This document shows positions 17,311 through 29,733 of a stretch of DNA of 64,000 bases, piece by piece (positions within the stretch are counted from its first letter, which is position 1; the number at the start of each line of letters is the position of its first letter). A model generated the notes under the pieces. The model was given only the letters and a program-made list of their open reading frames with translations. It was not told the origin of the DNA and did not search any database. Position numbers and translations under genes: made by a program. Origin of the DNA: Siphonodentalium dalli (taxonomy: Eukaryota > Mollusca > Scaphopoda > Gadilida > Siphonodentaliidae). The stretch lies in the NCBI GenBank assembly GCA_032622095.1, contig CP136064.1:218626205-218690204 (forward strand), read 5' to 3'.

Positions 17311-17512
17311 GGCACTATGGGCCAGTACCCCCCAGACATGGGCACTATGGCCCAGTACCCCCCAGACAAGGGCACTATGGCCCAGTACCCCCCCCCCAGA
17401 CATGGGCACTATGGCCCAGTACCCCCCAGACATGGGCATAGTGCCCATGTCTGGGGGGTACTGGGCCATAGTGCCCATGTCTGGGGGGTACTGGGCCATA
17501 GTTCCCCCTGAG
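17311..17512. repeat. 30-bp terminal tandem array that folds back on itself (left)
   Basis: Units of CCCAGTACCCCCCAGACATG plus GGCACTATGG repeat four times, then the orientation flips at about 17,427-17,447 (CATGGGCATAGTGCCCATG) and two inverted units follow. The arm end is therefore a palindrome as well as one half of the element's inverted repeat. Confidence 0.85.
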
Positions 17513-17639
17513 GATAGATGTTCCTGTCATTGATGTGACATTTCTGATCGAAAAAATGAAAATGGACTTTTTTCAAAAGGAAAATCTCACTTTGGAAAAT
17601 ATCAATTAGCTATCAAGAGTTTCTTTTCGATCAGTTGGT

Positions 17640-17655
17640 GGCCCTGAAAAGGGCC
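17640..17655 (-). terminator. Histone-type 3' stem-loop, OTU gene (left arm)
   Basis: Minus-strand GGCCCTTTTCAGGGCC: a 6-bp stem with TTTC loop, preceded by AAAAC and followed by ACC. It lies 19 nt past the stop codon at 17,675. Confidence 0.75.
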
Positions 17656-17674
17656 GTTTTATTTTTGTTATAGT

Positions 17675-18179
17675 TTAGAATCCGCCACATTGAACTTCTT
17701 TGTTCGACAAAACTTCAATTGATTTGTCTCCTCTCCTCATCCATATTTCGCATTCACAATAATGCTCGTGGCAAGCGTGGGGGATCCACACTAGAGGTAT
17801 TGATGACTTGAATCTTGGTGTTGATTTGTAGCCGCCTTTGGTAGCATCAAACATGACGATAGGTCGCTGTATAACAGTCGCCGCTAATTCAACCATCAAT
17901 CTTGATTCGGCCAAAAGTGGTGAGTGTCGTAAGTCTTGTGCCGACGCACCAAGTTCGTCCCTCTCTGTGTAGTACAGGTCAACTACCGCATCTCAGAACC
18001 ATCCATCCATCGGTCGTCCCGTAAACCCCAATGCTGAGTGCCCTCCAAAATAGAGATATTTCTTCGCCGTACACTGCTTTACAGTATACCCCACGGACCA
18101 TCATCTCGTCAAGATCGGTTATGTTTACAGCAGTCATCTTTGAATGCAGAATAAATTGTTCGCTGCCGTGCTTGAACAT
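17675..18179 (-). pseudogene. OTU-like protein, frameshifted left-arm copy
   Basis: This copy is nearly identical to the intact gene at 28,862-29,368. A 2-bp deletion at about 17,988-17,994 (CTGAGATGCGG here against CTGAGAGATGTGG there) shifts the frame after the LFWRALSIGVYG block. The first part ends at a premature stop near 17,979; the second half continues from 17,914 in another frame to the proper stop. The upstream motif and 3' hairpin are kept, so transcription signals may still be intact. A few other substitutions separate the copies (for example Lys for Met at residue 14). Confidence 0.8.
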
Positions 18180-18221
18180 ATATCATGATTGCGCGGGCGG
18201 TAGAGAAAGCACATAATGCTT

Positions 18222-18266
18222 TGACGTTAAAAATGACAAATGTTTCCTGACGTGTTTCTTTTCAGT
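18222..18266 (-). promoter_or_regulatory. Shared upstream motif, OTU gene (left arm)
   Basis: The minus strand carries the motif with core ACGTCAGGAAACATTTGTCA followed by TTTTTAACGTCAA, about 45 nt before the start codon. This copy has lost two bases in CACAACG compared with the others. Confidence 0.55.
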
Positions 18267-18629
18267 GCATTATCTGTTAGTTTCACCATTTCGATATGTT
18301 ATAGATTAAATTCATGATAGTATATGCAATTAATTAAGATGTTTTAACATATGAATTCATCTTCGTTCATAAACGATGACCAAGTAAAGTTATCAAATGC
18401 AATGATCAAGAAAAATGTTCAGTATGTTTCTTGTGTTCAGTTTTTTATGTATAAAATATGTACAATTCCAAAACAAAAACTAGAAAAACATTCCATATTT
18501 TCCTAACGAGGTAACAAATATATCAAATCATGTGTACCAAATAATAGATAATGATCTAACGAAATTAAAAACATTTGTTTGATCGCTATACAATAATGAT
18601 CAAGAAAAATATGCATGTTGATCCGTCTC
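18267..18629. repeat. Divergent intergenic cassette between OTU and B genes (left)
   Basis: Non-coding, and repeated almost verbatim at 19,905-20,270 in the same arm and inverted in the right arm. It includes CCTAACGAGGTAACAAATAT, TGATCAAGAAAAAT and TATGAATTCATCTTCGTTCA blocks. Seven copies of its inner ~120 bp exist in the element: 18,540-18,630, 20,150-20,270, 25,858, 26,138, 26,502, 28,148 and 28,423. Confidence 0.75.
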
Positions 18630-18675
18630 TGAAAAAACACAACGTCAGGAAATATTTGTCAATTTTAACGCCAAC
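18630..18675 (+). promoter_or_regulatory. Shared upstream motif, gene B (left arm)
   Basis: TGAAAAAACACAACGTCAGG continuing into AAATATTTGTCAATTTTAAC, about 90 nt before the ATG at 18,763. It matches the motif before the OTU, C and E genes. Confidence 0.6.
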
Positions 18676-18762
18676 GCGACATGTGATTTCATTGTCGCCC
18701 GTGTCAAATGTATACAAATATTTTCGAATTTGATCAACCTTACATTGCATTGCTATCAAGAG

Positions 18763-19251
18763 ATGGATCCGTTAACATAATTTCTTCAGAGTGAGATATA
18801 CAGTGATCCTGTTGCACAGAATACATATGCTGCACCACAGTCAACAGTCCAAGCTAATACGACAATGACTATAGGTGGTGATACACTCATTTTAAAAGCG
18901 ATTTTAGATGAACTGAGATGTCTTCGCAGGGATATTGACGTGAAAACGCAAGTAACGCATCATGAAGTGAAAGTGAGTCTTCGTTTCGTTGCAGAACAGA
19001 TAGATATCCCAATCAGGGTTCATGATGTTCAGAGATCGAAAGAGCAGAAACAGATCAAAAAAGCAAAATCATCGGCGACGAAAGAAAAACAACCTAAGAG
19101 TATCATGAAGGCTTCTACTGAGACAAAAGTCAGATTTCATCTTCCTTGTAAAGAATCTAGAGATACAGAAAAATGTGATGAATTCGCAAAAGCTCTCGGT
19201 TCTCATGGGAAAGATATGTCAAGATATAAGAAAAACACAAAACGGTGTTAA
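18763..19251 (+). pseudogene. Small basic protein B, left-arm copy with early stop
   Basis: Matches the intact right-arm gene at 27,526-28,014, but codon 6 is TAA (18,778-18,780) where the right copy has GAA, a single G-to-T change. Reading could restart at the ATG at 18,865 to give a 128-residue form missing the first 34 residues. The rest is nearly identical, including the Lys-rich tail. The 3' hairpin follows 22 nt after the stop. Confidence 0.75.
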
Positions 19252-19273
19252 AGTCAGATGATAAATTTAAAAC

Positions 19274-19289
19274 GGCCCTTTTCAGGGCC
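19274..19289 (+). terminator. Histone-type 3' stem-loop, gene B (left arm)
   Basis: GGCCCTTTTCAGGGCC preceded by AAAAC and followed by ACACAC, 22 nt after the TAA ending at 19,251. Confidence 0.75.
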
Positions 19290-19499
19290 ACACACATTTC
19301 CCAAAAGGTTACTCTTTCATAGCTGAAAAAAACAAAACACGATTGTTCAATTCATAATTTATTCAACAACAAATATTTGCAAGTATATTTTGTTTTAAAT
19401 TATTCGTGGCATGATTTTTTCAAAACGAAACATAGGGTACAAGGAACATTATTAGTTCTTAAGCAATGCTAAAAGTTTTTCTTTTTAAAAAAATTGGTT
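19290..19499. other. Convergent spacer between genes B and C (left)
   Basis: Non-coding. After the B hairpin come TTTCCCAAAAGGTTACTC and AACAAAACACGATTGTTCA, the same sequence that follows the E hairpins at 25.1 and 25.35 kb, so B and E share their 3' flank. Confidence 0.6.
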
Positions 19500-19515
19500 G
19501 GTCCTGAAAAGGACC
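19500..19515 (-). terminator. Histone-type stem-loop with compensatory pair change (left C)
   Basis: Minus-strand GGTCCTTTTCAGGACC. Relative to the other hairpins the third stem pair is T-A instead of C-G, so both sides changed together. A CAATTTTTTTAAAAAGAAAAACT purine-rich region follows. Confidence 0.75.
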
Positions 19516-19526
19516 GTTTTTGTTTT

Positions 19527-19542
19527 GGCCCTGAAAAGGGCC
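19527..19542 (-). terminator. Histone-type 3' stem-loop, gene C (left arm)
   Basis: Minus-strand GGCCCTTTTCAGGGCC with AAAAC before it, 19 nt after the stop at 19,562. It is the first of two tandem hairpins. Confidence 0.75.
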
Positions 19543-19561
19543 GTTTTGTACGACATCAAAT

Positions 19562-19825
19562 TCACTTCCCAATTTTCTCAGAGTGAGAATTTTGCTTTTG
19601 TTGTCCCGCCTCAGATAAAATAGGACAGCTAGGCTCGGCTGGTATGGTTGCTGTTCTTTTTTGCATGATCAGCTTTGAACGGGCAGTCACTTCTCTTGCG
19701 TACCTGTCCCACATTATCTGCGGTGTCATCCCCATAGTTCCTCTCAGTATCGCCATCAAGGGTTCGGGGATTGCAGATATGTTGAGAACAATAGAATAAG
19801 TCTGAAGATCCGTCTTGAACTTGTA
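19562..19825 (-). pseudogene. 3' fragment of unknown gene C fused to an OTU-type promoter (left)
   Basis: The frame is open from 19,825 (TAC right after a TGA) to the stop at 19,562, 87 residues, with no ATG until residue 24. It includes IPEPLMAILRGTMGMTPQIM and DRYAREVTARSKLIMQ. The sequence just upstream is the OTU gene's promoter, and the two join near GTTCAAG, which occurs in both genes. This looks like the C-terminal end of a longer protein spliced by recombination onto a foreign upstream region. The function is unknown; I do not recognise the family. Confidence 0.55.
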
Positions 19826-19863
19826 TCACGATTGCGCGGGCGGTAGAGAAAGCACATAATGCT

Positions 19864-19902
19864 TTGACGTTAAAAATGTTTCCTGACGTTGTGTTTCTTT
19901 TC
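19864..19902 (-). promoter_or_regulatory. Shared upstream motif, gene C fragment (left)
   Basis: Minus-strand CACAACGTCAGGAAACATTT followed by TTAACGTCAAAGC. It lacks the GTCA-T hexamer present in the right-arm copy. Confidence 0.5.
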
Positions 19903-20141
19903 AGTGCATTATCTGTTAGTTTCACCATTTCGATATGTTATAGATTAAATTCATGATAGTATATGCAATTAATTAAGATGTTTTAACATATGAATTCATC
20001 TTCGTTCATAAACGATGACCAAGTAAAGTTATCAAATGCAATGATCAAGAAAAATGTTCAGTATGTTTCTTGTGTTCAGTTTTTTATGTATAAAATATGT
20101 ACAATTCCAAAACAAAAACTAGAAAAACATTCCATATTTTC

Positions 20142-21077
20142 CTAACGAGGTAACAAATATATCAAATCATGTGTACCAAATAATAGATAATGATCTAACG
20201 AAATTAAAAACATTTGTTTGATCGCTATACAATAATGATCAAGAAAAATATGCATGTTGATCCGTCTCTGAAAAAACTTTTTTGTCTGTGATGGTAATTT
20301 CCAATCATTTTCAAGAAATAATTCAGCTGCAAAAGTGAAGAAATTTATAATTTGTGACAGTTCATCATGACTAAACATCTCGGCGGACGACATGGTTCTA
20401 AAATGAGAAAAGTAACAACAACTGAATTTATACTTTGAATAAATGACAGGACCTCGGTCATTAGCTGTCAACCATTTATGGAAAATATCAGTTCTAATTC
20501 GCAAATAATTTTCTGTTCTAGGATGAAAATCTACTAAAATATATCCATGATTTATTGAAGTTGCATCTTCGTATGCTTGTTTCAAATGATTGGTTTGCAT
20601 TTGATGAGACAAAACTTTTTTTTGATTTTTATCTCGAACGCTTTGAAATAAAACCATGTAGTGTGCATTCAAACTTATAGTTCTGCTACTTTTTGATTTT
20701 TGGAACATGTTTTGAGTAATGTAAATTATTGAAGCATTTCGATGGTGACCTTTTCTAGTAAACCAAAGCATTATTTTGTCTTCATCTTGTTCCCCCATCA
20801 TGTCATCGAAAACAACAAGATGAGGAAATGATTTATCTGATACAATTTCCTCATCATTGTCTGGAATACCATCGATAAACTCAACGTTATCAATTTCGTT
20901 TATACGATTGTATGTGTCTTGCCATTCTTTGTAACACCAAACTATTTTCTTTGGTGGTGTTTGGAATAAATCGTGTTTAAATTCAATAACTTTTTTAACA
21001 AATTCTGTTTTACCTGATCCACTAGGTCCGCTGATAAAGAAATTACACGGATGTTGGAAAAGTAAAGATTCTTCCAT
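20142..21077 (-). CDS. FtsK/HerA-type (A32-like) DNA packaging ATPase, with a hybrid 3' end
   Basis: Polintons and related double-jelly-roll viruses use this ATPase to pump DNA into capsids. Residues 15-24 hold the Walker A loop ISGPSGSGKT, residues 87-92 the Walker B LVVFDD, and a sensor-like YITQN follows near residue 117. The start is the ATG at 21,075-21,077, 33 nt after the stop of the upstream gene on the same strand, as in a compact viral cluster. The conserved ATPase part ends near residue 210 (YSKYK). From there the frame runs on through a TATAAATT box, the start of gene D (MSSAEMF, ATG at 20,393) and finally repeat cassette sequence to 20,142. The annotated 311 residues therefore overstate the native protein. 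No 3' hairpin follows. Confidence 0.8.
   Translation of the reverse strand: MEESLLFQHPCNFFISGPSGSGKTEFVKKVIEFKHDLFQTPPKKIVWCYKEWQDTYNRINEIDNVEFIDGIPDNDEEIVSDKSFPHLVVFDDMMGEQDEDKIMLWFTRKGHHRNASIIYITQNMFQKSKSSRTISLNAHYMVLFQSVRDKNQKKVLSHQMQTNHLKQAYEDATSINHGYILVDFHPRTENYLRIRTDIFHKWLTANDRGPVIYSKYKFSCCYFSHFRTMSSAEMFSHDELSQIINFFTFAAELFLENDWKLPSQTKKFFQRRINMHIFLDHYCIAIKQMFLISLDHYLLFGTHDLIYLLPR
20276..20393 (-). pseudogene. Truncated start of gene D (left arm)
   Basis: ATG at 20,393 begins MSSAEMFSHDELSQIINFF and continues to about SQTK, where it is cut by a repeat cassette at about 20,276-20,281. The identical fragment lies at 26,377-26,500 on the plus strand. It follows a TATA box at 20,425-20,432 by about 35 nt. 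The function is unknown. Confidence 0.55.
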
Positions 21078-21110
21078 GTTGTCACTTTGATGTATAATCA
21101 GAGAGTGAAC

Positions 21111-21806
21111 TTAACGACGTGTGAATTTAGTTTTTAAACAGAAATCTCCATAGCTGTAAATATTTCCAAACATTTCAATAATCCAAGTATTATAGTCTTC
21201 TATTCTTCTGTTTGTTCTGTAAACAAAAAAATCATTTCCTATAATGTTTTTAATTTTTGCATATGTTGACATTTTTTTTGTTAACAAATACCCATAGATC
21301 CTAGGAACTGATTTAAAGGTTCCCATAGCAAGAGGATAATTATCTTCATACTTTGTATAATGAATATAGTCATGTTCATCAAAAGTTTCTAAATCTAAAT
21401 GGTGTTCATCACCACCAAATATCCAAAAATCAGATATTCTTTCAATGAGAAAAAATGCTTTGAATTTAATAAATGATTCAATATATTTTTGAGAGAAATG
21501 AGAAAATATACTTGTCTCAAGATAGTCCAATCTCTGTAAACATTCGTCGACATCACAGCATCGTAGTATTGCTTCCTTTTCTCTTTCAAACCAGACTTCT
21601 TGTAATTCCTTCTTTATCTCTGGAATAAGTGTTGACTGTGCCACCAAATATCCATAAATCTTCTCAGCAATTTCTGGAGGTACTACTCCTGTCAACATCT
21701 TGACATGAAATGACTCAACATCTCCATCCGTATGGATATGTGTGAATACCATTGACGAGTTTTCGTTTTGTGTACACCGATCTGAAAGTTTTGGTTTGAC
21801 ACTCAC
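21111..21806 (-). CDS. Unknown Polinton protein, 231 residues
   Basis: The gene lies between polymerase B and the ATPase on the same strand. It overlaps the last 92 nt of the polymerase frame in a different frame and ends 33 nt before the ATPase start, so the three look co-transcribed. The protein is rich in aromatic and acidic residues (FWIFGGDEHHLDLETFDEHD) and has a basic C-terminus (CLKTKFTRR). No membrane segment, signal peptide or catalytic motif is evident. Position suggests a replication or virion gene of the element, but I do not recognise a family. The frame is intact with an ATG-type start, unlike the polymerase beside it. Confidence 0.65.
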   Translation of the reverse strand: MSVKPKLSDRCTQNENSSMVFTHIHTDGDVESFHVKMLTGVVPPEIAEKIYGYLVAQSTLIPEIKKELQEVWFEREKEAILRCCDVDECLQRLDYLETSIFSHFSQKYIESFIKFKAFFLIERISDFWIFGGDEHHLDLETFDEHDYIHYTKYEDNYPLAMGTFKSVPRIYGYLLTKKMSTYAKIKNIIGNDFFVYRTNRRIEDYNTWIIEMFGNIYSYGDFCLKTKFTRR

Positions 21807-24800
21807 TAATCAGTTGATGGTTCTTTTGTCTTTTAATTCTGGAAGGATACTCAACAACAGTTTTGAAATTTTCACGATCATTAACACATTGTACCATTGT
21901 TTCAAAATTAACTTTTTGACTTGTGCTGTAATCAAGAGTGATACCTTTTACCTTACATTTGGTGTATCTTCTCCCATCTTTGATGTATTCATATCCGTAG
22001 TTCTTTGGCCCAAGTCCAACAAATTTGACAATCTTTGCATCTGGATGTTCGTCGCTCCATTTCCCCAATCTTCCTTCGATAGTTTTGATGTTCTTCTTTG
22101 ATGGATCACTGGCATACATACAGCTGTCTGTATCAAAATACAGCACTCTATCTCCAAGTTTTTAAAAAACTTTATACAATTGTAATCTTGCATACGCTGT
22201 AACAAAAGAAGCAACAACAACATTTGCTGAATGATGAGGTTCAATATTATCTAAAATATCAACATAATTTACCAGAATGAATTTGTCACCATCAAGAAGT
22301 GTAACATTTTGAACAATTATATTGTTACTAGTAAGCAATTCAAAATAACGTGATGGCTTATCCACATACTCTGTTATTGAAATAAGATTTCATTGTGCAT
22401 TCTTACCCCATATACAATTAATCATAATTTTAGATATTTGGCAAATTGATTCAACTCTGTAACCAAGACTTTCCAGTTCATCTTTCTTCTGTTGAGTTCT
22501 TGTATATAATTCTTCCATGGTGAGCATCGTATAGGGATTCTTGTATTGTCTGTTGTAACATTTTGGACATCCATGAAACAGACATCCATTCATCTCAAAA
22601 ACTGTTCTTGTGGCTTCCTCATAGCCATCGACGTAGTGTCCACCAATCTTGATTTCTCCTCCATTCAAAGCATGCTTAATTGTTATCATACGTGACAATG
22701 ATAGATGTTGAAGCCAACGTATCGCTTTCATGGAATAGTTTTTAGCACATGGGTATCCACCATCTGGAATGATTCCAATTGTTTTCTCTGGCATTGAATT
22801 CTTCCTCCATGCCAAATTGCAAACTTGCGCCAATGTTATTGACTCAATGAACGGGTCAATCTGTTCTGTTTCCAATATGTATTTCCTGAAATTTCCACAT
22901 CCATGGCGAAGAATATCCACGTCTGATTTGCAGTACTTCTCCATCTCTTCTTGGAAGTTGAATATCACGTAATTTTCTATTTTCTCATTGTACCATTCAA
23001 AGAATTTCTCTCGATTTTCCACGCTCATCATGTCTGGTTTGTAGTAATCAGAAGCCAAGTAAGGTCCAATGTAATTTTGAAACTTTGGTGAATTCACCCA
23101 ATGTGGAAAGTGTCCTTTCGCCATCTCATTCAGCTGAAAAGTTTGTGGAAACTTTGAAAGCGGCATCATCAGAAAACTCAGAGAATCAATAACTTTCACG
23201 CTGTTGCATTTTAAACTGAGAATTTTGTTTCCATTCATGATCAGTTCTGGTTTATGAATTCCACTTTGTATGAGTGCTTGAAGTAGAAACTGTGCATCGT
23301 ATCCCTGAGCATTATGTGCTATTGCAACACATCCTTTGTGATCTTGGTGGAATAACCAGTTTGTGAAGTCTGTTAAAATGTTGTCACCCTTGAATACAAA
23401 TTCTCTGGAATCCGGTCCGCATGTTTCACATTTTTCTTCGATTGGTTTGCACATGCAATCTCCACAAGCGGTATGTGCAACACAGAAGTTTGGAATATGA
23501 ACACCTGTGTCTTGTCTGCATTCAAAGTCAAAGAATACATATGGAATCTTTGCAGGTTTCTTTTCCGGTGATTCATATTTTGGAATGTAGCACCTGTGAT
23601 CTGCTTCAACGATTTCTTTGCAATGTTTGCATTTCTTCAACCCCGCACATATATGTCTGCTTGATTTATTGGTGAGAATTTCTTCATCACAATTGTTGCA
23701 TAGTTGAACCAAATCACATATTTTTCTTTTCTGTTTTCCTTCCGTCTTCAAATGGTTATCGAAACAAGATTTACTTCTGAATGATCGTCGACACGTTCTA
23801 CACTTCACCCAATTTGTGAAATTACACTGTGTCAATGACCAGCATGCACAAACAAATCTGCATCGATGATCGCCACGACTTTTGAATCCAATGTCACAGA
23901 ATTCGCAGTAGTAGCTGGTGCCTAGAAATCCTTTGATTGATGTTATGGTGTCGAAGTGATTGTTGTTGTAGTAGATGTGTACACATTTGCTCTCCGAACA
24001 CATTTCTGCAGGTTCAAATAGAAATCCAGCGCCAGCAAATTCATTGTGAATTTTCACAACATATTCTGGATACAATATTTCTTGAATCTTGTGGAACTCA
24101 TTGATACTGCAAACTGTATCGTGTGGAATGCCAGCACGGTTGAGTAGATTTTTTGCTGCATCTGTTTGTGCTATGTATATTGATTGTCTTATTCTTTTCC
24201 ATTTCTTTGACCAGCACGCAGATCCATCACTATCTGCCTTACACATTCCGACGACAATAGATCTTGCCATACACATAACATCATCAGCATTTTCAATCCG
24301 GACAATACTTCTTTTTACTTTTGTCAGCTTGTTCTTGTCTGCAAATGGTCCATAATGTAGTGAGTGTCGTGTACCACCTTCCGGAATATCTGTAACGAAG
24401 ATTTCGAAATTGAGTGCACCGTCATGAATTGTAAAGTCTGCATTTGATTGAACCACATTTTGAATATTATCCATGAGTGTCCCACCATTCAATTCACTGG
24501 CTTTTGTGAATGGAATGAAAATGTTCATATCAAGTCCTGGATGATTTATCGTAACTCTGATTCTTGTCTTCTCATTTGCTGAACATTTGTGTTTCAATTC
24601 TTCTGTCAACTTCTCAAATATCTCTGGAATGTTCTCGATTGGATCTGTAAATTTCTAGAATTTCACACCAAATTGTCGTGCTGCTGATTAAAATTTTCTG
24701 GAAAATTTCTCCGAGTTCAGCTCCAATTTGAAATATTTTGTTGGATTGAACACAACACGCTCTCTAGCCAGACTTCTCTTTCTCTTCCCACCAATTTCTC

Positions 24801-24972
24801 TATTCTGTCTTCGACCGCGTCCAATCTGCCCATCACTAGAATTTTCTTCACTTTCTGCCCCATCAGTTTCCATTTCGCTCTCTTCAATAACTGCAGGCCT
24901 TGGTCTTTTTCTAACAATATCTTCTTCGCTGGTGGCGTCGTCTGAAACAGGTCTTTTAATTCTCTTAAACAT
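21715..24972 (-). pseudogene. Protein-primed family B DNA polymerase, inactivated
   Basis: Polintons replicate with this polymerase. The N-terminal part (24,972 on) is acidic-then-basic. Four CxxC pairs lie at about 23,900-23,600. Exonuclease motifs follow: FFDFE (about 23,525), AHNAQGYD (about 23,310) and YCKSDVDIL (about 22,920). Then come the Polinton-typical VDGYEEAT...NGCLFHGCPKC block (about 22,640-22,555), a WGKNAQ motif-B region (22,393-22,410) and YFDTDS, the motif C metal site (about 22,130). Four stops lie in this same frame: TAA 24,688-24,690, TAG 24,655-24,657, TGA 22,390-22,392 (where family members have Arg, so probably CGA decay) and TAA 22,162-22,164. The palm stretch with motif A (DxxSLYP) is missing: the sequence passes directly from the LGYRVES block to the motif B region, an apparent in-frame deletion. 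It is therefore catalytically dead. Confidence 0.85.
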
Positions 24973-25053
24973 TTTTGTCTTGAGTTTTGTCAGCAAAAAA
25001 TATTGCGACTGGCTTCTTCGGATTTGAAGTGTAAAGTGTAGAATTACACCTGC

Positions 25054-25060
25054 TTTTATA
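25054..25060 (-). promoter_or_regulatory. TATA box of the polymerase-ATPase cluster
   Basis: Minus-strand CTATAAAAGC, about 80 nt before the first ATG of the polymerase frame (24,972). A second copy from the 214-bp duplication lies at 25,268-25,274. Confidence 0.55.
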
Positions 25061-25134
25061 GCATTTTCATCGCGTGAACAATCGTGTTTTGTTTTTTTCA
25101 GCTATGAAAGAGTAACCTTTTGGGAAATGTGTGT

Positions 25135-25150
25135 GGCCCTGAAAAGGGCC
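25135..25150 (-). terminator. Histone-type stem-loop, duplicate behind gene E
   Basis: Minus-strand GGCCCTTTTCAGGGCC in the distal copy of the 214-bp duplication. A transcript passing the first hairpin would meet this one. Confidence 0.7.
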
Positions 25151-25348
25151 GTTTTCTCTTTTCCAGGATTCATAAGAATTCTGACAAATCAGGATATATC
25201 CCGTTGGGATTAATTGTCACAGACCAAATAGGATTTGATATGTGCGCCGCACCAACCTGAGCAAAGCTTTTATAGCATTTTCATCGCGTGAACAATCGTG
25301 TTTTGTTTTTTTCAGCTATGAAAGAGTAACCTTTTGGGAAATGTGTGT

Positions 25349-25364
25349 GGCCCTGAAAAGGGCC
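25349..25364 (-). terminator. Histone-type 3' stem-loop, gene E
   Basis: Minus-strand GGCCCTTTTCAGGGCC, 19 nt past the stop of gene E at 25,384, with AGAAAAC before and ACACAC after. Confidence 0.75.
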
Positions 25365-25383
25365 GTTTTCTCTTTTCCAGGAT

Positions 25384-25737
25384 TCATAAGAATTCTGACA
25401 AATCAGGATATATCCCGTTGGGATTAATTGTCACAGACCAAATAGGATTTGATCTGTGCGCCGCACCAACCTGAGCAAAGCTGTCAATCGCTGCATTGCA
25501 CAGATCTTTCTTCTTGATCTGTGACAAGATCTCCACGAGATCAAGATTGCTTGATTCTTGAACATCACATACTTTAGGCAATGGTCGTCGGCGAGTCAAA
25601 AAATCTCTTATCATCTGCTTCTGAACCCTACTTTGTTTAGGAGAATCCTGCCATTTCTTATATCTTCTTATTTCCGTCTCCTCTGACGAATCTCTCTTCC
25701 TCCACAACTTCTTGAGAAATTTCTTTAAAGACGGCAT
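25384..25737 (-). CDS. Small basic protein E, 117 residues, unknown function
   Basis: ATG at 25,737 gives MPSLKKFLKKLWRKR, a strongly basic, possibly amphipathic N-terminus. A middle part rich in Arg/Lys/Glu follows, then a neutral C-terminus with AIDSFAQVGA and a NPNGIYPDL end. A small DNA-binding or virion protein is possible, but I do not recognise the family. It precedes the polymerase on the same strand, has the shared upstream motif about 75 nt before the start, and ends in a histone-type hairpin. The frame is intact. Confidence 0.6.
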   Translation of the reverse strand: MPSLKKFLKKLWRKRDSSEETEIRRYKKWQDSPKQSRVQKQMIRDFLTRRRPLPKVCDVQESSNLDLVEILSQIKKKDLCNAAIDSFAQVGAAHRSNPIWSVTINPNGIYPDLSEFL

Positions 25738-25811
25738 AATGAATGAAGTTCACTGAAAAAGTTAAAATATTTGTATACATTTGACACGGGCGACAATGAA
25801 ATCACATGTCG

Positions 25812-25858
25812 CGTTGGCGTTAAAATTGACAAATATTTCCTGACGTTGTGTTTTTTCA
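25812..25858 (-). promoter_or_regulatory. Shared upstream motif, gene E
   Basis: Minus-strand TGAAAAAACACAACGTCAGG then AAATATTTGTCAATTTTAAC and GCCAACGCGACATGTGATTT. Apart from small differences it equals the gene B upstream region. Confidence 0.6.
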
Positions 25859-26275
25859 GAGACGGATCAACATGCATATTTTTCTTGATCATTATTGCAT
25901 AGCGATCAAACAAATGTTTTTAATTTCGTTAGATCATTATCTATTATTTGGTACACATGATTTGATATATTTGTTACCTCGTTAGGAAAATATGGAATGT
26001 TTTTCTAGTTTTTGTTTTGGAATTGTACATATTTTATACATAAAAAACTGAACACAAGATTGTTACACGGGCGTCAATGAAAACACAACGCATTGAACTT
26101 AAAAATTGACAAGTATTTCCTCAAGTTGTGTTTTTTCAGAGACGGATCAACATGCATATTTTACTTGATCATTATTGTATAGCGATCAAACAAATGTTTT
26201 TAATTTCGTTAGATCATTATCTATTATTTGGTACACATGATTTGATATATTTGTTACCTCGTTAGGAAAATATAG
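25859..26275. repeat. Repeat cassettes between gene E and the right arm
   Basis: Two copies of the inner cassette (from 25,858 and 26,138) with a variant motif region between them. Non-coding on both strands apart from short frames generated by the cassette itself. Confidence 0.65.
26083..26142 (-). promoter_or_regulatory. Diverged, orphan copy of the shared motif
   Basis: The minus strand reads AAAACACAACTTGAGGAAAT then ACTTGTCAATTTTTAAGTTC. It has the same layout as the functional copies but altered at the ACGTCAGG core, and no gene follows. A twin lies at 28,365-28,425. Confidence 0.45.
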
Positions 26276-26337
26276 AACTGATATTTTCCATAAATGGTTG
26301 ACAGCTAATGACCGAGGTCCTGTCATTTATTCAAAAG

Positions 26338-26345
26338 TATAAATT
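26338..26345 (+). promoter_or_regulatory. TATA box before gene D fragment
   Basis: AGTATAAATTCAG, 32-39 nt upstream of the ATG at 26,377. The intervening TTCTCATTTTAG could hold the transcription start. The mirror copy is at 20,425-20,432. Confidence 0.45.
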
Positions 26346-26376
26346 CAGTTGTTGTTACTTTTCTCATTTTAGAACC

Positions 26377-26628
26377 ATGTCGTCCGCCGAGATGTTTAGT
26401 CATGATGAACTGTCACAAATTATAAATTTCTTCACTTTTGCAGCTGAATTATTTCTTGAAAATGATTGGAAATTACCATCACAGACAAAAAAGTTTTTTC
26501 AGAGACGGATCAACATGCATATTTTTCTTGATCATTATTGTATAGCGATCAAACAAATGTTTTTAATTTCGTTAGATCATTATCTATTATTTGTTACACA
26601 TGATTTGATATATTTGTTACCTCGTTAG
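26377..26628 (+). pseudogene. Truncated start of gene D (right arm)
   Basis: The same 5' fragment as at 20,276-20,393 (MSSAEMFSHDELSQI...), cut at about 26,500 by the cassette AGAGACGGATCAACATGCAT. The frame runs on through cassette sequence to 26,628. Its original partner is unknown. That both arms have the same cut means it happened before the arms were copied. Confidence 0.55.
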
Positions 26629-26873
26629 GAAAATATGGAATGTTTTTCTAGTTTTTGTTTTGGAATTGTACATATTTTATACATAAAAAACTGAACACAA
26701 GAAACATACTGAACATTTTTCTTGATCATTGCATTTGATAACTTTACTTGGTCATCGTTTATGAACGAAGATGAATTCATATGTTAAAACATCTTAATTA
26801 ATTGCATATACTATCATGAATTTAATCTATAACATATCGAAATGGTGAAACTAACAGATAATGCACTGAAAAG
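26629..26873. repeat. Promoter-side cassette before gene C (right)
   Basis: Non-coding. Contains CATATGTTAAAACATCTTAATTAATTGCATA and the CTCGTTAGGAAAATATGG block shared with the other intergenic cassettes of the element. Confidence 0.6.
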
Positions 26874-26918
26874 AAACACAACGTCAGGAAACATTTGTCA
26901 TTTTTAACGTCAAAGCAT
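26874..26918 (+). promoter_or_regulatory. Shared upstream motif, gene C fragment (right)
   Basis: AAACACAACGTCAGGAAACA then TTTGTCATTTTTAACGTCAA, followed by GCATTATGTGCTTTCTCTAC exactly as before the OTU gene. Confidence 0.55.
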
Positions 26919-26951
26919 TATGTGCTTTCTCTACCGCCTGCGCAATCGTGA

Positions 26952-27215
26952 TACAAGTTCAAGACGGATCTTCAGATTTATTCTATTGTTCTCAACATAT
27001 CTGCAATCCCCGAACCCTTGATGGCGATACTGAGAGGAACTATGGGGATGACACCGCAGATAATGTGGGACAGGTACGCAAGAGAAGTGACCGCCCGTTT
27101 AAAGCTGATCATGCAAAAAAGAACAGCAACCATACCAGCCGAGCCTAGCTGTCCTATTTTATCTGAGGCGGGACAACAAAAGCAAAATTCTCACTCTGAG
27201 AAAATTGGGAAGTGA
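26952..27215 (+). pseudogene. 3' fragment of unknown gene C (right arm)
   Basis: Right-arm twin of 19,562-19,825: the frame is open for 87 residues after a TGA, and the first ATG is at 27,021. The 19-nt distance from its stop to the hairpin matches the other genes, which supports this frame over the overlapping frame ending at 27,148. The upstream region is the OTU-type promoter, so the 5' part of the gene has been replaced. It could still produce a short protein from the internal ATG. The family is unknown. Confidence 0.55.
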
Positions 27216-27234
27216 ATTTGATGTCGTACAAAAC

Positions 27235-27250
27235 GGCCCTTTTCAGGGCC
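27235..27250 (+). terminator. Histone-type 3' stem-loop, gene C (right arm)
   Basis: GGCCCTTTTCAGGGCC with AAAAC before it, 19 nt past the stop at 27,215. Confidence 0.75.
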
Positions 27251-27261
27251 AAAACAAAAAC

Positions 27262-27277
27262 GGTCCTTTTCAGGACC
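27262..27277 (+). terminator. Second histone-type stem-loop with compensatory change (right C)
   Basis: AAAAACGGTCCTTTTCAGGA followed by CCAACCAA. The stem pair C-G is replaced by T-A on both sides. A purine-rich CAAAAAGAAAAAC, like the histone downstream element, follows about 15 nt later. Confidence 0.75.
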
Positions 27278-27487
27278 AACCAATTTTTTCAAAAAGAAAA
27301 ACTTTTAGCATTGCTTAAGAACTAATAATGTTCCTTGTACCCTATGTTTCGTTTTGAAAAAATCACGCCACGAATAATTTAAAACGAAATATACTTGCAA
27401 ATATTTGTTGTTGAATAAATTATGAATTGAACAATCGTGTTTTGTTTTTTTCAGCTATGAAAGAGTAACCTTTTGGGAAATGTGTGT
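27278..27487. other. Convergent spacer between genes C and B (right)
   Basis: Non-coding, inverted copy of 19,290-19,499. No further signal seen. Confidence 0.6.
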
Positions 27488-27503
27488 GGCCCTGAAAAGG
27501 GCC
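27488..27503 (-). terminator. Histone-type 3' stem-loop, gene B (right arm)
   Basis: Minus-strand GGCCCTTTTCAGGGCC, preceded by TTTAAAAC and followed by ACACAC, 22 nt past the stop at 27,526. Confidence 0.75.
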
Positions 27504-27525
27504 GTTTTAAATTTATCATCTGACT

Positions 27526-28014
27526 TTAACACCGTTTTGTGTTTTTCTTATATCTTGACATATCTTTCCCATGAGAACCGAGAGCTTTTGCGAATTCATC
27601 ACATTTCTCTGTATCTCTAGATTCTTTACAAGGAAGATGAAATCTGACTTTTGTCTCAGTAGAAGCCTTCATGATACTCTTAGGTTGTTTTTCTTTCGTC
27701 GCCGATGATTTTGCTTTTTTGATCCGTTTCTGCTCTTTCGATCTCTGAACATCATGAACCCTGATTGGGATATCTATCTGTTCTGCAACGAAACGAAGAC
27801 TCACTTTCACTTCATGATGCGTTACTTGCGTTTTCACGTCAATATCCCTGCGAAGACATCTCAGTTCATCTAAAATCGCTTTTAAAATGAGTGTATCACC
27901 ACCTATAGTCATTGTCGTATTAGCTTGGACTGTTGACTGTGGCGCAGCATATGTATTCTGTGCAACAGGATCACTGTATATCTCACTCTGAAGAAATTCT
28001 GTTAACGGATCCAT
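27526..28014 (-). CDS. Small basic protein B, 162 residues, unknown function
   Basis: I choose the ATG at 28,014 (MDPLTEFLQSEIYSD); a longer frame to 28,047 begins at a non-ATG codon. Residues about 38-75 (TLILKAILDELRCLRRDID) look helical or coiled-coil. The rest is Lys/Arg-rich (KEQKRIKKAKSSATKEKQPK) and ends in SRYKKNTKRC. A nucleic-acid-binding or structural protein is plausible. I recognise no family. It diverges from the OTU gene across a cassette with two copies of the shared motif, and ends in a histone-type hairpin shared with gene E's 3' flank. The left-arm copy has a stop at codon 6, so this is the only full-length copy. Confidence 0.6.
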   Translation of the reverse strand: MDPLTEFLQSEIYSDPVAQNTYAAPQSTVQANTTMTIGGDTLILKAILDELRCLRRDIDVKTQVTHHEVKVSLRFVAEQIDIPIRVHDVQRSKEQKRIKKAKSSATKEKQPKSIMKASTETKVRFHLPCKESRDTEKCDEFAKALGSHGKDMSRYKKNTKRC

Positions 28015-28104
28015 CTCTTGATAGCAATGCAATGTAAGGTTGATCAAATTCGAAAATATTTGTATACATTTGACACGGGCGACAATGAAATCACATGTCG
28101 CGTT

Positions 28105-28147
28105 GGCGTTAAAATTGACAAATATTTCCTGACGTTGTGTTTTTTTA
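28105..28147 (-). promoter_or_regulatory. Shared upstream motif, gene B (right arm)
   Basis: Minus-strand AAAAAACACAACGTCAGGAA then ATATTTGTCAATTTTAACGC, about 90 nt before the ATG at 28,014. A GTATACAAATATTTT stretch lies between. Confidence 0.6.
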
Positions 28148-28777
28148 GAGGCGGATCAACATGCATATTTTTCTTGATCATTATTGCATAGCGATCAAAT
28201 ATTTTTAATTTCGTTAGATCATTATCTATTATTTGGTACACATGATGATATATTTGTTACCTCGTTAGGAAAAATATGGAATGTTTTTCTAGTTTTTGTT
28301 TTGGAATTGTACATATTTTATACATAAAAAACTGAACACAAGATTGTTACACAGGCGTCAATGAAAACACAACGCATTGAACTTAAAAATTGACAAGTAT
28401 TTCCTCAAGTTGTGTTTTTTCAGAGACGGATCAACATGCATATTTTACTTGATCATTATTGTATAGCGATCAAACAAATGTTTTTAATTTCGTTAGATCA
28501 TTACACATGATTTGATATATTTGTTACCTCGTTAGGAAAATATGGAATGTTTTTCTAGTTTTGTTTTGGAATTGTACATATTTTATACATAAAAAACTGA
28601 ACACAAGAAACATACTGAACATTTTTTCTTGATCATTGCATTTGATAACTTTACTTGGTCATCGTTTATGAACGAAGATGAATTCATATGTTAAAACATC
28701 TTAATTAATTGCATATACTATCATGAATTTAATCTATAACATATCGAAATGGTGAAACTAACAGATAATGCACTGAA
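28148..28777. repeat. Divergent intergenic cassette between genes B and OTU (right)
   Basis: Two inner cassettes (from 28,148 and 28,423) and one orphan motif (28,365-28,425), so it is longer than the left-arm equivalent by one cassette. Non-coding. Confidence 0.7.
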
Positions 28778-28824
28778 AAGAAACACAACGTCAGGAAACA
28801 TTTGTCATTTTTAACGTCAAAGCA
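28778..28824 (+). promoter_or_regulatory. Shared upstream motif, OTU gene (right arm)
   Basis: AAACACAACGTCAGGAAACA then TTTGTCATTTTTAACGTCAA, ending about 40 nt before the ATG at 28,862. This is the complete form of the motif. Confidence 0.6.
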
Positions 28825-28861
28825 TTATGTGCTTTCTCTACCGCCCGCGCAATCATGATAT

Positions 28862-29368
28862 ATGTTCAAGCACGGCAGCGAACAATTTATTCTGCATTCA
28901 ATGATGACTGCTGTAAACATAACCGATCTTGACGAGATGATGGTCCGTGGGGTATACTGTAAAGCAGTGTACGGCGAAGAAATATCTCTATTTTGGAGGG
29001 CACTCAGCATTGGGGTTTACGGGACGACCGATGGATGGATGGTTCTGAGAGATGTGGTAGTTGACCTGTACTACACAGAGAGGGACGAACTTGGTGCGTC
29101 GGCACAAGACTTACGGCACTCACCACTTTTGGCCGAATCAAGATTGATGGTTGAATTAGCGGCGACTGTTATACAGCGACCTATCGTCATGTTTGATGCT
29201 ACCAAAGGCGGCTACAAATCAACACCAAGATTCAAGTCACCAATACCTCTAATGTGGATCCCCCACGCTTGCCACGAGCATTATTGTGAATGCGAAATAT
29301 GGATGAGGAGAGGAGACAAATCAATTGAAGTTTTGTCGAACAAAGAAGTTCAATGTGGCGGATTCTAA
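28862..29368 (+). CDS. OTU-like protein, 168 residues, with Ser at the expected Cys
   Basis: The OTU fold is a deubiquitinase/cysteine protease fold. The N-terminal third contains EEISLFWRALSIGVYGTTDG, which lines up with the family block D-G-N-C-L-F-R-A-L-S..-Y-G. The second part has a helix (ESRLMVELAATVIQRPIVMF) and then PLMWIPHACHEHY, matching the region with the C-terminal catalytic His. At the nucleophile position both arm copies have Ser (residue 42), with one extra residue (Trp) in the loop. The product may therefore be a non-catalytic ubiquitin binder or use another geometry. ATG at 28,862; intact frame; hairpin 19 nt after the stop. The left-arm copy is frameshifted. Fold assignment is by motif order only. 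Confidence 0.6.
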   Translation: MFKHGSEQFILHSMMTAVNITDLDEMMVRGVYCKAVYGEEISLFWRALSIGVYGTTDGWMVLRDVVVDLYYTERDELGASAQDLRHSPLLAESRLMVELAATVIQRPIVMFDATKGGYKSTPRFKSPIPLMWIPHACHEHYCECEIWMRRGDKSIEVLSNKEVQCGGF

Positions 29369-29387
29369 ACTATAACAAAAATAAAAC

Positions 29388-29403
29388 GGCCCTTTTCAGG
29401 GCC
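29388..29403 (+). terminator. Histone-type 3' stem-loop, OTU gene (right arm)
   Basis: AAAACGGCCCTTTTCAGGGC then CACCAA: 6-bp stem, TTTC loop, with the canonical ACC tail. A purine-rich CGAAGAAACTC lies about 10 nt downstream, in the place of the histone downstream element. Confidence 0.8.
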
Positions 29404-29533
29404 ACCAACTGATCGAAGAAACTCTTGATAGCTAATTGATATTTTCCAAAGTGAGATTTTCCTTTTGAAAAAAATAATTCTAAGTCCATTTTCATTTTTT
29501 CGATCAGAAATGTCACATCAATGACAGGAACAT

Positions 29534-29733
29534 CTATCCTCAGGGGGGAACTATGGCCCAGTACCCCCCAGACATGGGCACTATGGCCCAGTACCCCCCC
29601 CCCCCCCCCAGACATGGGCACTATGGCCCAGTACCCCCCAGACATGGGCACTAGTGGGCCATAGTGCCCATGTCTGGGGGGTACTGGGCCATAGTGCCCA
29701 TGTCTGGGGGGGGGGGTACTGGGCCATAGTGCC
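29534..29733. repeat. 30-bp terminal tandem array that folds back on itself (right)
   Basis: The same CCCAGTACCCCCCAGACATG units as the left end, flipping at about 29,650. C/G homopolymers here are longer (up to 13 C) than in the left array. Confidence 0.85.

Follow-up and report, generated by a model that had tools for sequence, protein, structure and literature searches.

Four of the small accessory genes of a Polinton in the scaphopod Siphonodentalium dalli, namely OTU-like, B, C and E, end in the complete 3' signal of replication-dependent histone genes, at which their transcripts would very probably be cut by SLBP, U7 and CPSF73 and not polyadenylated. An mRNA that lacks poly(A) and ends in a stem-loop is considered a mark of replication-dependent histone genes. 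At the sequence level the two-part signal on the genes of the element is confirmed, and the identification of its hairpins as histone-type mRNA 3' ends is supported. Such ends had been noted from the DNA itself with the remark that no description in Polintons was known, and none was found in the literature searched.

The element and its genes

The window, that is the whole stretch of DNA analysed, comprises 64,000 nt of S. dalli (GCA_032622095.1, CP136064.1:218,626,205-218,690,204, forward strand) with a GC content of about 36%. The element in it is a Polinton (adintovirus-like integrated element). It shares with Polinton/Maverick elements and adintoviruses a type B DNA polymerase (Pfam DNA_pol_B_2, 3.8e-15 for the first frame; the PolB entry had 59 scored matches, 97-100% identical) and an A32-type ATPase (Pox_A32, 1.9e-08 in the window and 6.6e-9 in sister copy L089). 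Sister copies further show an rve integrase match in L089 (E 2.3e-5, covering half of the domain, 25 bits and below the curated cut-off of 32.6) and a possible adenovirus-type endoprotease in L090 (Peptidase_C5, E 5.6e-4, 20.1 bits and below the cut-off of 21.3), while no integrase was seen in the window copy. The capsid-like protein at L089:2-781 gave no Pfam match and may be an adintovirus hexon, which it looks like. Two arms of some 3 kb, inverted relative to each other, are built of blocks that are 99-100% alike. The accessory genes, their stem-loops and the arms are as follows.

17504..20496: left inverted arm with OTU-like, B and C genes, in blocks (repeats I1-I4, I6, I22 and I25 pair with 26273-29547, 99-100% complementary)
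17640..17655, minus: stem-loop with downstream box, 19 nt after the left OTU-like stop (Rfam Histone3 17615-17660, 40.0 bits)
17675..17992, minus: 3' part of the left OTU-like gene copy, with 105 open codons (C-terminus same as 28862-29368)
18865..19251, plus: left copy of gene B, 128 aa counted from ATG, the frame being open from 18781
19274..19289, plus: stem-loop 22 nt after the B stop, left arm (Histone3 19269-19313, 40.1 bits)
19500..19515, minus: distal C stem-loop, GGTCCTTTTCAGGACC, left arm, 46 nt after the stop, with box (Histone3 19474-19520, 35.6 bits)
19527..19542, minus: proximal C stem-loop, left arm, 19 nt after the stop, without a box of its own (under Rfam gathering)
19562..19825, minus: left copy of gene C, with 87 open codons (four sister copies retain part of the frame, with indels)
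25135..25150, minus: second E stem-loop, within the 214-bp tandem copy of the 3' end of E (Histone3 25111-25155)
25349..25364, minus: stem-loop 19 nt after the E stop (Histone3 25325-25369, 40.1 bits)
25384..25737, minus: gene E, 117 aa
26273..29547: right inverted arm (inverted-repeat comparison)
26952..27215, plus: gene C, right copy
27235..27250, plus: proximal C stem-loop, right arm (under Rfam gathering)
27262..27277, plus: distal C stem-loop, right arm (Histone3 27257-27303, 37.1 bits)
27488..27503, minus: stem-loop 22 nt after the B stop, right arm (Histone3 27464-27508, 40.1 bits)
27526..28014, minus: gene B, right copy, 162 aa
28862..29368, plus: OTU-like gene, right copy, 168 aa
29388..29403, plus: stem-loop 19 nt after the right OTU-like stop (Histone3 29383-29427, 37.7 bits)

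The OTU-like, B, C and E proteins have no credible family match, a point in which the element differs from Polinton/Maverick elements and adintoviruses. The name OTU, as used in the sequence-only reading, found no backing in Pfam (no family at E<=0.1, and none at E<=1 for the sister copies), in PDB sequences or among 17 protein-search candidates. In the family 1 protein a Ser stands, by eye, at the place of the OTU catalytic Cys, and an OTU protease identity is supported neither by a family match nor by this residue.

The core and unassigned genes of the window copy are the following.

20142..21077, minus: A32-type packaging ATPase ORF, without stem-loop; its C-terminal part continues into sequence common to 26308-26628
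21111..21752, minus: 213-aa ORF of no known family, without stem-loop
21715..24654, minus: type B DNA polymerase, spread over three frames in this copy (22390-24654, 22162-22389 and 21715-22161, the two shorter ones assigned by eye), without stem-loop
24688..25101, minus: gene D fragment, without stem-loop (zinc-knuckle-like in a sister copy, weak)

The initial claim that "Polinton genes" end in hairpins holds for small accessory genes only: no hairpin was found at PolB or the ATPase of the window (search with up to 3 mismatches), nor at the ATPase, integrase, capsid-like and protease genes over the 8.6 kb read in one sister copy. Near PolB of that same copy the exact 16-mer was absent among the matches listed. 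No AATAAA or ATTAAA occurs within 600 nt of the ATPase and D genes.

Hairpins at the ends of the accessory genes

As first reported, ten hairpins, eight of one sequence, lie between 17640 and 29403: GGCCCTTTTCAGGGCC was matched ten times with up to 3 mismatches, eight times exactly and twice as GGTCCTTTTCAGGACC, which represents a paired change on both sides of the stem, and shuffled sequences gave a mean of 0.09 matches, with 0 of 100 reaching ten. All of them are sense to the preceding gene, and the distance from the stop to the first hairpin is 19 nt for OTU, C and E and 22 nt for B, again in agreement with the sequence-only reading. Its "ten copies" are indeed present, yet they are not independent and amount to five distinct hairpins at four gene ends. 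The OTU, B and two C hairpins each occur twice because the inverted arms are 99-100% alike, and tandem duplication of 214 bp at the 3' end of E has placed the second E hairpin 233 nt from the E stop.

The window hairpins have the 6-bp stem, TTTC loop and AAAAC 5' flank first described and a 3' flank of ACCA, ACAC or AACC, apart from the two proximal C hairpins, where the 3' flank is AAAA. These two, which have no downstream box, are also the ones that fall below the gathering threshold of Rfam Histone3, passed by the other 8 of 10 with up to 40.1 bits. In sister copies scores reach 42.6 bits and the family-1 copies scanned pass likewise. Most family-2 hairpins fall below gathering: matches were obtained only in L002 (1 of 3) and L061, and none in L050, L051, L060 and L065. 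The folding energy equals that of the host hairpin (-11.4 kcal/mol) in three of four element hairpins folded, the distal C hairpin giving -9.3. Across the genome, counts by stem pair were 2608 for C-G, 386 for the T-A double change, 71 for T.G and 25 for the C.A mismatch.

Downstream box and host histone genes

All 30 host H3 loci, two of which were translated, carry the 16-mer of the element unchanged, and in 27 of them a second histone-array 3' end carries it too; the two loci scanned scored 41.6 bits with Histone3. The host hairpins have an AAAC 5' flank and an ACCA or AACT 3' flank, followed 14-15 nt on by a purine-rich box at the expected place of the U7-binding histone downstream element (HDE). 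The same two-part layout is found in the element genes, with a purine-rich box 12-16 nt beyond the stem. By a pattern picked after looking at the sequences, the core of the box begins at +13 to +17 in all eight element classes and at +15/+16 in the host. In five of the eight classes, alignment to the host flank scored above 999 or more of the 1000 shuffles; it was weak in the other three, where 29 (family 1 B), 128 (family 1 E) and 28 (family 2 OTU2) of 1000 shuffles were as good. Proximal C hairpins are without the box, and distal C hairpins have it.

Regarding the trans-acting factors, two host stretches match the RNA-binding domain of SLBP (E 3.1e-13, and E 3.9e-4 with one internal stop). 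None of 31 stretches examined by eye, a minority of the places listed by repeat-swamped pattern searches, resembled U7 snRNA, and a U7 family search gave no match anywhere, its controls being equally without match.

Placement and conservation across copies

The survey covered the window and 24 fetched loci of the one genome of S. dalli. Of 83 hairpins, 80 stood where a recognised element gene ends, and 66 of 81 had a downstream box, against 10% of random positions, the gene-end motifs and box patterns having been picked after looking at the sequences. A stop codon lies 10-30 nt upstream of 65/81 hairpins in the sense direction and of 0/81 in antisense, compared with 3.3% of random positions, although the copies are related and these counts do not represent independent events. 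Hairpin placement, in sense only, is tied to stop codons, as had been proposed. Between two diverged families the OTU-like proteins are identical at 49 of 165 aa (30%) and the hairpin at 16 of 16 positions, 13-19 nt from the stop in both.

Alternative explanations

The hairpin could instead be an SLBP-binding element for stability or translation in the 3' UTR of an mRNA that is polyadenylated further on. We consider this unlikely, even though AATAAA or ATTAAA occurs within 600 nt of several stops, with one AATAAA that overlaps the OTU hairpin at its 5' flank and others lying at least 198 nt after the stops of C, E, right B and left OTU, and even though a downstream box is missing at the proximal C hairpin. 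A precedent for dual histone and poly(A) processing is human H2AC18, according to PMC9756948. Given these motifs, polyadenylation of the accessory transcripts may occur; however, AATAAA is frequent by chance at about 36% GC, and a box at host spacing in 8/8 classes would be useless without cutting by the U7 machinery.

It is very unlikely that the element uses the hairpins as its own DNA or RNA signals (terminator, packaging or recombination site), with a superficial likeness to histone ends. They are numerous and lie inside inverted arms, but the hairpin is identical to that of host H3, with similar flanks and box, and occurs in sense only, after stops, with none at the integrase, ATPase, capsid-like and protease genes examined in a sister copy. 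Viral genes terminated by hairpins are also known in giant viruses such as Mimivirus, where, according to PMC4402537, palindromes of another kind are cut by a viral enzyme and the products are polyadenylated, unlike what we propose for the element. Hardly credible is a functionless passenger, namely pieces of host histone 3' UTR picked up by chance and multiplied. The distal C hairpin region is 86% similar to the host flank over 50 nt, and B and E of the window share an identical 3' cassette of 81 nt. Against this stand the paired double change in the stem (perhaps one event) and the hairpin itself, which is the same 13-19 nt beyond the stop in two families whose OTU-like proteins are 30% identical. 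In addition, no histone coding or promoter sequence is common to the element and the two host units compared, the similarity of the window element to these being confined to the 3' signal, C runs and one 18-nt match (E 0.27).

Proposed mechanism and implications

In the histone-type processing that we favour, the host stem-loop-binding protein (SLBP) would bind the hairpin, the box would pair with the host U7 snRNP, and CPSF73 would cut between the two, a few nt after the stem, as in the histone 3'-end pathway (PMC7614891). The accessory mRNAs would leave the nucleus without poly(A) and be made, translated and stable mainly where SLBP is present, that is in S phase and perhaps in oocytes or early embryos. 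Core genes would use ordinary polyadenylation, and under such a division of genes the accessory proteins would be turned on in DNA-replicating cells. With confidence slightly better than even, we extend the proposal to two 3'-end classes, ordinary for core and U7/SLBP-processed for accessory genes, with selection on the signal in at least two diverged families of this genome; accessory proteins would be tied to S phase or the egg, the DNA may go to the histone locus body, and the arrangement could be a general trait of animal Polintons that has been overlooked.

If true, this would be a new way for transposon or virus genes to couple to the host cell cycle and a handle on the time and place of Polinton gene expression, and accessory transcripts could be overlooked by poly(A)-selected RNA-seq. 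Histone-type end signals on accessory genes set this element apart from the Polinton/Maverick elements and adintoviruses described in the literature searched. Relative to the metazoan histone 3' end (Rfam RF00032 Histone3; SLBP/U7), stem, loop, flanks, box and spacing are shared and the 16-mer is that of host H3; the accessory genes, like histone genes, are short and open in one exon by sequence. The differences are that the carriers here are accessory genes of a virus-like mobile element, and that gene C has two tandem hairpins, the first without a box.

Hairpins in the window

In silico analysis of the window with a search allowing up to three mismatches returned 10 matches to the 16-mer, the hairpin sequence consisting of a 6-bp stem and a TTTC loop. 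Eight matches are exact and two carry the paired change GGTCC...GGACC; the chance expectation for the window, based on dinucleotide shuffles, is 0.09. All ten copies claimed by the sequence-only reading, eight of them exact, were thus recovered, but they represent five different hairpins at four gene ends, because the inverted arms of the locus repeat blocks (17504-20496 pairs with 26273-29547, in blocks 99-100% alike). The same reading had placed the proximal hairpin 19-22 nt after the stop codons of the OTU, B, C and E genes, in agreement with the distances measured in the sense orientation, namely 19 nt for the OTU-like gene, 22 nt for B, 19 nt for C and 19 nt for E. A second (distal) hairpin is found 46 nt past the stop of gene C, while the second hairpin of gene E lies 233 nt past the stop, inside a 214-bp tandem duplicate. 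A check against Histone3, the Rfam covariance model of the histone mRNA 3' end, had also been suggested; 8 of the 10 window hairpins reached its curated gathering cut-off, both failures being proximal C hairpins.

Nature of the element

The gene set of the element fits a Polinton. PolB matched DNA_pol_B_2 (3.8e-15) and the ATPase matched Pox_A32. In a sister copy, the block beside the ATPase contains a match to the rve integrase (2.3e-5) and, at its end, one to an adenovirus-type endoprotease (5.6e-4), both under the curated cut-offs. A further frame of this copy, for which no Pfam match was obtained, is presumably an adintovirus-type capsid protein. The family looks young, since the 59 PolB matches scored out of 2563 candidates, that of the window among them, share 97-100% identity and 51 of the 59 are free of internal stops. 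The window copy is rearranged, with PolB spread over three frames.

Viral-contig scans with PolB, the ATPase, the capsid-like protein, the integrase and an ATPase alignment, a DNA pattern scan for the hairpin and a genome-contig search revealed no related elements elsewhere. The protein collection contains 388 ATPase relatives, as sequences without genomic context. No Polinton or other transposon with histone stem-loops appeared among the papers listed for the literature searched, a set with most subscription papers outside its scope, and the word stem-loop is absent from the main text of an adintovirus paper (PMC11071296). The signal itself belongs to a known type; its carrier, a Polinton, is new as far as this literature goes.

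Placement across the genome

The genome searched comprises 2.23 Gb in 9 contigs and contains 2608 occurrences of the exact 16-mer, histone genes among them. Approximately 100 listed places, all on contig C1, were grouped into 38 clusters, of which 24 (two only in part) were examined together with the window. These 25 loci carry 83 hairpins, 80 of which lie at the ends of recognised element genes of two diverged Polinton families, as assigned with C-terminal motifs derived from these very sequences.

Hairpins at element gene ends and their distance from the stop codon
Family 1, B: 15 hairpins, all at 22 nt
Family 1, OTU-like: 16 hairpins, all at 19 nt
Family 1, C: 24 hairpins, proximal at 13 or 19 nt, distal at 41 or 46 nt
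Family 2, B: 4 hairpins, at 19 nt
Family 2, OTU1 and OTU2: 2 hairpins each, at 13 nt
E, both families: 17 hairpins, at 18-28 nt, measured from whichever E-end copy lies closest

In addition, a motif-free count was performed, with locus L001 excluded and the window limited to its element part. The sense stop of a frame of at least 70 codons was present 10-30 nt upstream in 65 of 81 hairpins and an antisense one in 0 of 81, while 3.3% of 96,000 random positions had such a stop upstream. Within this sample, the hairpin is therefore not distributed among repeats without relation to stop codons, the pattern that the sequence-only reading had named as speaking against a gene-end signal.

Three hairpins were located outside recognised gene ends:
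L001 (G000:C1:64258500-64268400), hairpins at 2333 and 7946, plus strand, 25 nt past a 119-codon frame
L063, 1882-1926, minus strand, Histone3 match of 37.5 bits, assigned to neither Polinton family

L001 is a tandem array with a period of about 5.6 kb and six evenly spaced hairpin places among those listed. The idea that this 5.6-kb period marks a host histone array was dropped; the array has an ORF pair that we take to be reverse-transcriptase-like. Its 119-codon frame matched no Pfam family and may be a further case of a histone-type end outside the histone genes. The L063 hairpin lies downstream of a frame weakly similar to Ulp1-protease, past an apparent 3' splice site. A family-2 hairpin at position 2242 of locus L002 was also considered as an integrase end and dropped; the frame terminates like the second OTU-like gene of locus L061.

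Conservation between families

The proteins of the two families have diverged considerably. The OTU-like proteins share 49 of 165 residues, E shows short similarity only (12/26), and B scores 69 against 68 for the best of 200 shuffles, so that its orthology rests on start, end and neighbourhood. The hairpin is identical at 16/16 positions in the OTU-like and B pairs. In family-2 E, it contains a T.G pair at locus L065 and is the exact 16-mer at L002. At the third stem pair, C-G was counted 2608 times in the genome, T-A 386 times, T.G 71 times and C.A 25 times; the pairing variants exceed the mismatched one, although among related copies these may reflect one event. Histone3 gave no match above gathering at the family-2 loci L050, L051, L060 and L065, and one for the three hairpins of L002.

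Comparison with host histone genes

The proposed comparison with host histone 3' ends covered 30 loci, from at least 150 histone matches scored, and bore out the likeness, as the identical 16-mer is present at all 30. The H3-type 3' flank is uniform in 30/30, with an ACAAAC 5' flank, the 16-mer and then ACCAAAATTTCACTAAAGATAAACTC; H3 is encoded at the two loci that were translated. The same histone units contain a second 3' end, a putative gene end, in which the 16-mer is followed by AACTAAATTTTTCACAAAGAGAAACATTT (27/30 loci). H3-type matches, among those listed, are mostly on contigs C8, C9 and C5. Histone3 scores are 41.6 bits at two host H3 loci and up to 42.6 at element gene ends (in sister copies), and the folding energy is -11.4 kcal/mol in the host and in three of the four element hairpins folded, the distal C hairpin having -9.3. 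When the window element was compared with two host histone units, DNA similarity was confined to the 3' signal (21-50 nt), except for runs of the base C and one 18-nt match (E 0.27).

Concerning the purine-rich downstream box, eight element classes were compared (four genes per family in two families, with the distal hairpin used for C). Counted from the stem, the core starts at +13 to +17 in these classes and at +15/+16 in the host. Shuffles aligning as well to the host flank, per 1000, numbered 0 for OTU, 29 for B, 0 for C and 128 for E in family 1, and 1 for OTU1, 28 for OTU2, 0 for B and 0 for E in family 2. The resemblance is strong in five classes and weak in three (family-1 B and E, family-2 OTU2). 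A box pattern, picked after inspecting the sequences, follows 66 of 81 hairpins versus 10.1% of random positions. A slightly wider pattern is absent from 15 of 80 assigned hairpins, i.e., 13 of the 24 for C, one OTU-like and one B. The 13 boxless C hairpins equal the proximal C hairpins (13) in number, and in the sequences the distal hairpin directly follows the proximal one. Processing of gene C transcripts is thus likely to be directed by the distal hairpin, and the proximal one would be retained in the mRNA. Beyond the box, the word TGCT occurs about 30 nt after the stem in 8 of 10 rows (both host rows and 6 of the 8 element classes).

Predicted fate of the transcripts

In histone mRNA, the stem-loop is the binding site of SLBP and the downstream element base-pairs with U7 snRNA, with CPSF73 acting as the endonuclease; SLBP levels rise before S phase, and the protein promotes mRNA processing and export as well as translation and stability (PMC7614891). 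Element mRNAs would likewise be bound by SLBP at the stem-loop and by U7 at the box, be cut by CPSF73, and undergo SLBP-promoted processing, export, translation and stabilisation. The host genome contains two stretches for the SLBP RNA-binding domain, one with an internal stop. An Rfam family search for host U7 snRNA returned none, its controls being equally silent. Four pattern searches used the U7 Sm motif together with the sequence complementary to the box, and the downstream part of 31 stretches was folded (13 of 22, 7 of 73, and 11 picked from about 100 places listed for each of 239 and 348); some of these fold moderately, down to -14.1 kcal/mol, and none is U7-like by eye.

Alternatively, the accessory mRNAs may be polyadenylated. 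At the OTU gene, an AATAAA overlaps the A-rich sequence flanking the hairpin. Either machinery can process the transcript of a human H2A gene in which the two signals overlap (PMC9756948). A histone-type fate of the accessory transcripts is our best prediction, because both cis parts, hairpin and box, are present. No hairpin with at least 5/6 pairs is present in the 8.6 kb of the sister copy covered by loci L089 and L090 (ATPase, integrase, capsid-like and protease genes), and the places listed include no exact 16-mer in the 3.8-kb stretch from L089 to L003, which holds the PolB of that copy; therefore, as far as examined, histone-type ends appear restricted to accessory genes. An AATAAA is located about 250 nt past the protease frame of the sister copy, weak evidence taken alone, while none is present within 600 nt of ATPase and D in the window.

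Further repeats in the element

Genes E and B of the window copy share an identical 81-nt 3'-end cassette (25075-25155, 25289-25369 and 27428-27508), while their cassettes differ from each other in L003, as if cassettes had been exchanged between genes. Furthermore, the B, C and OTU-like genes are preceded by copies of a 70-nt block that are 80-81% alike (18632-18701, 26871-26940 and 28778-28847), perhaps a shared promoter element.
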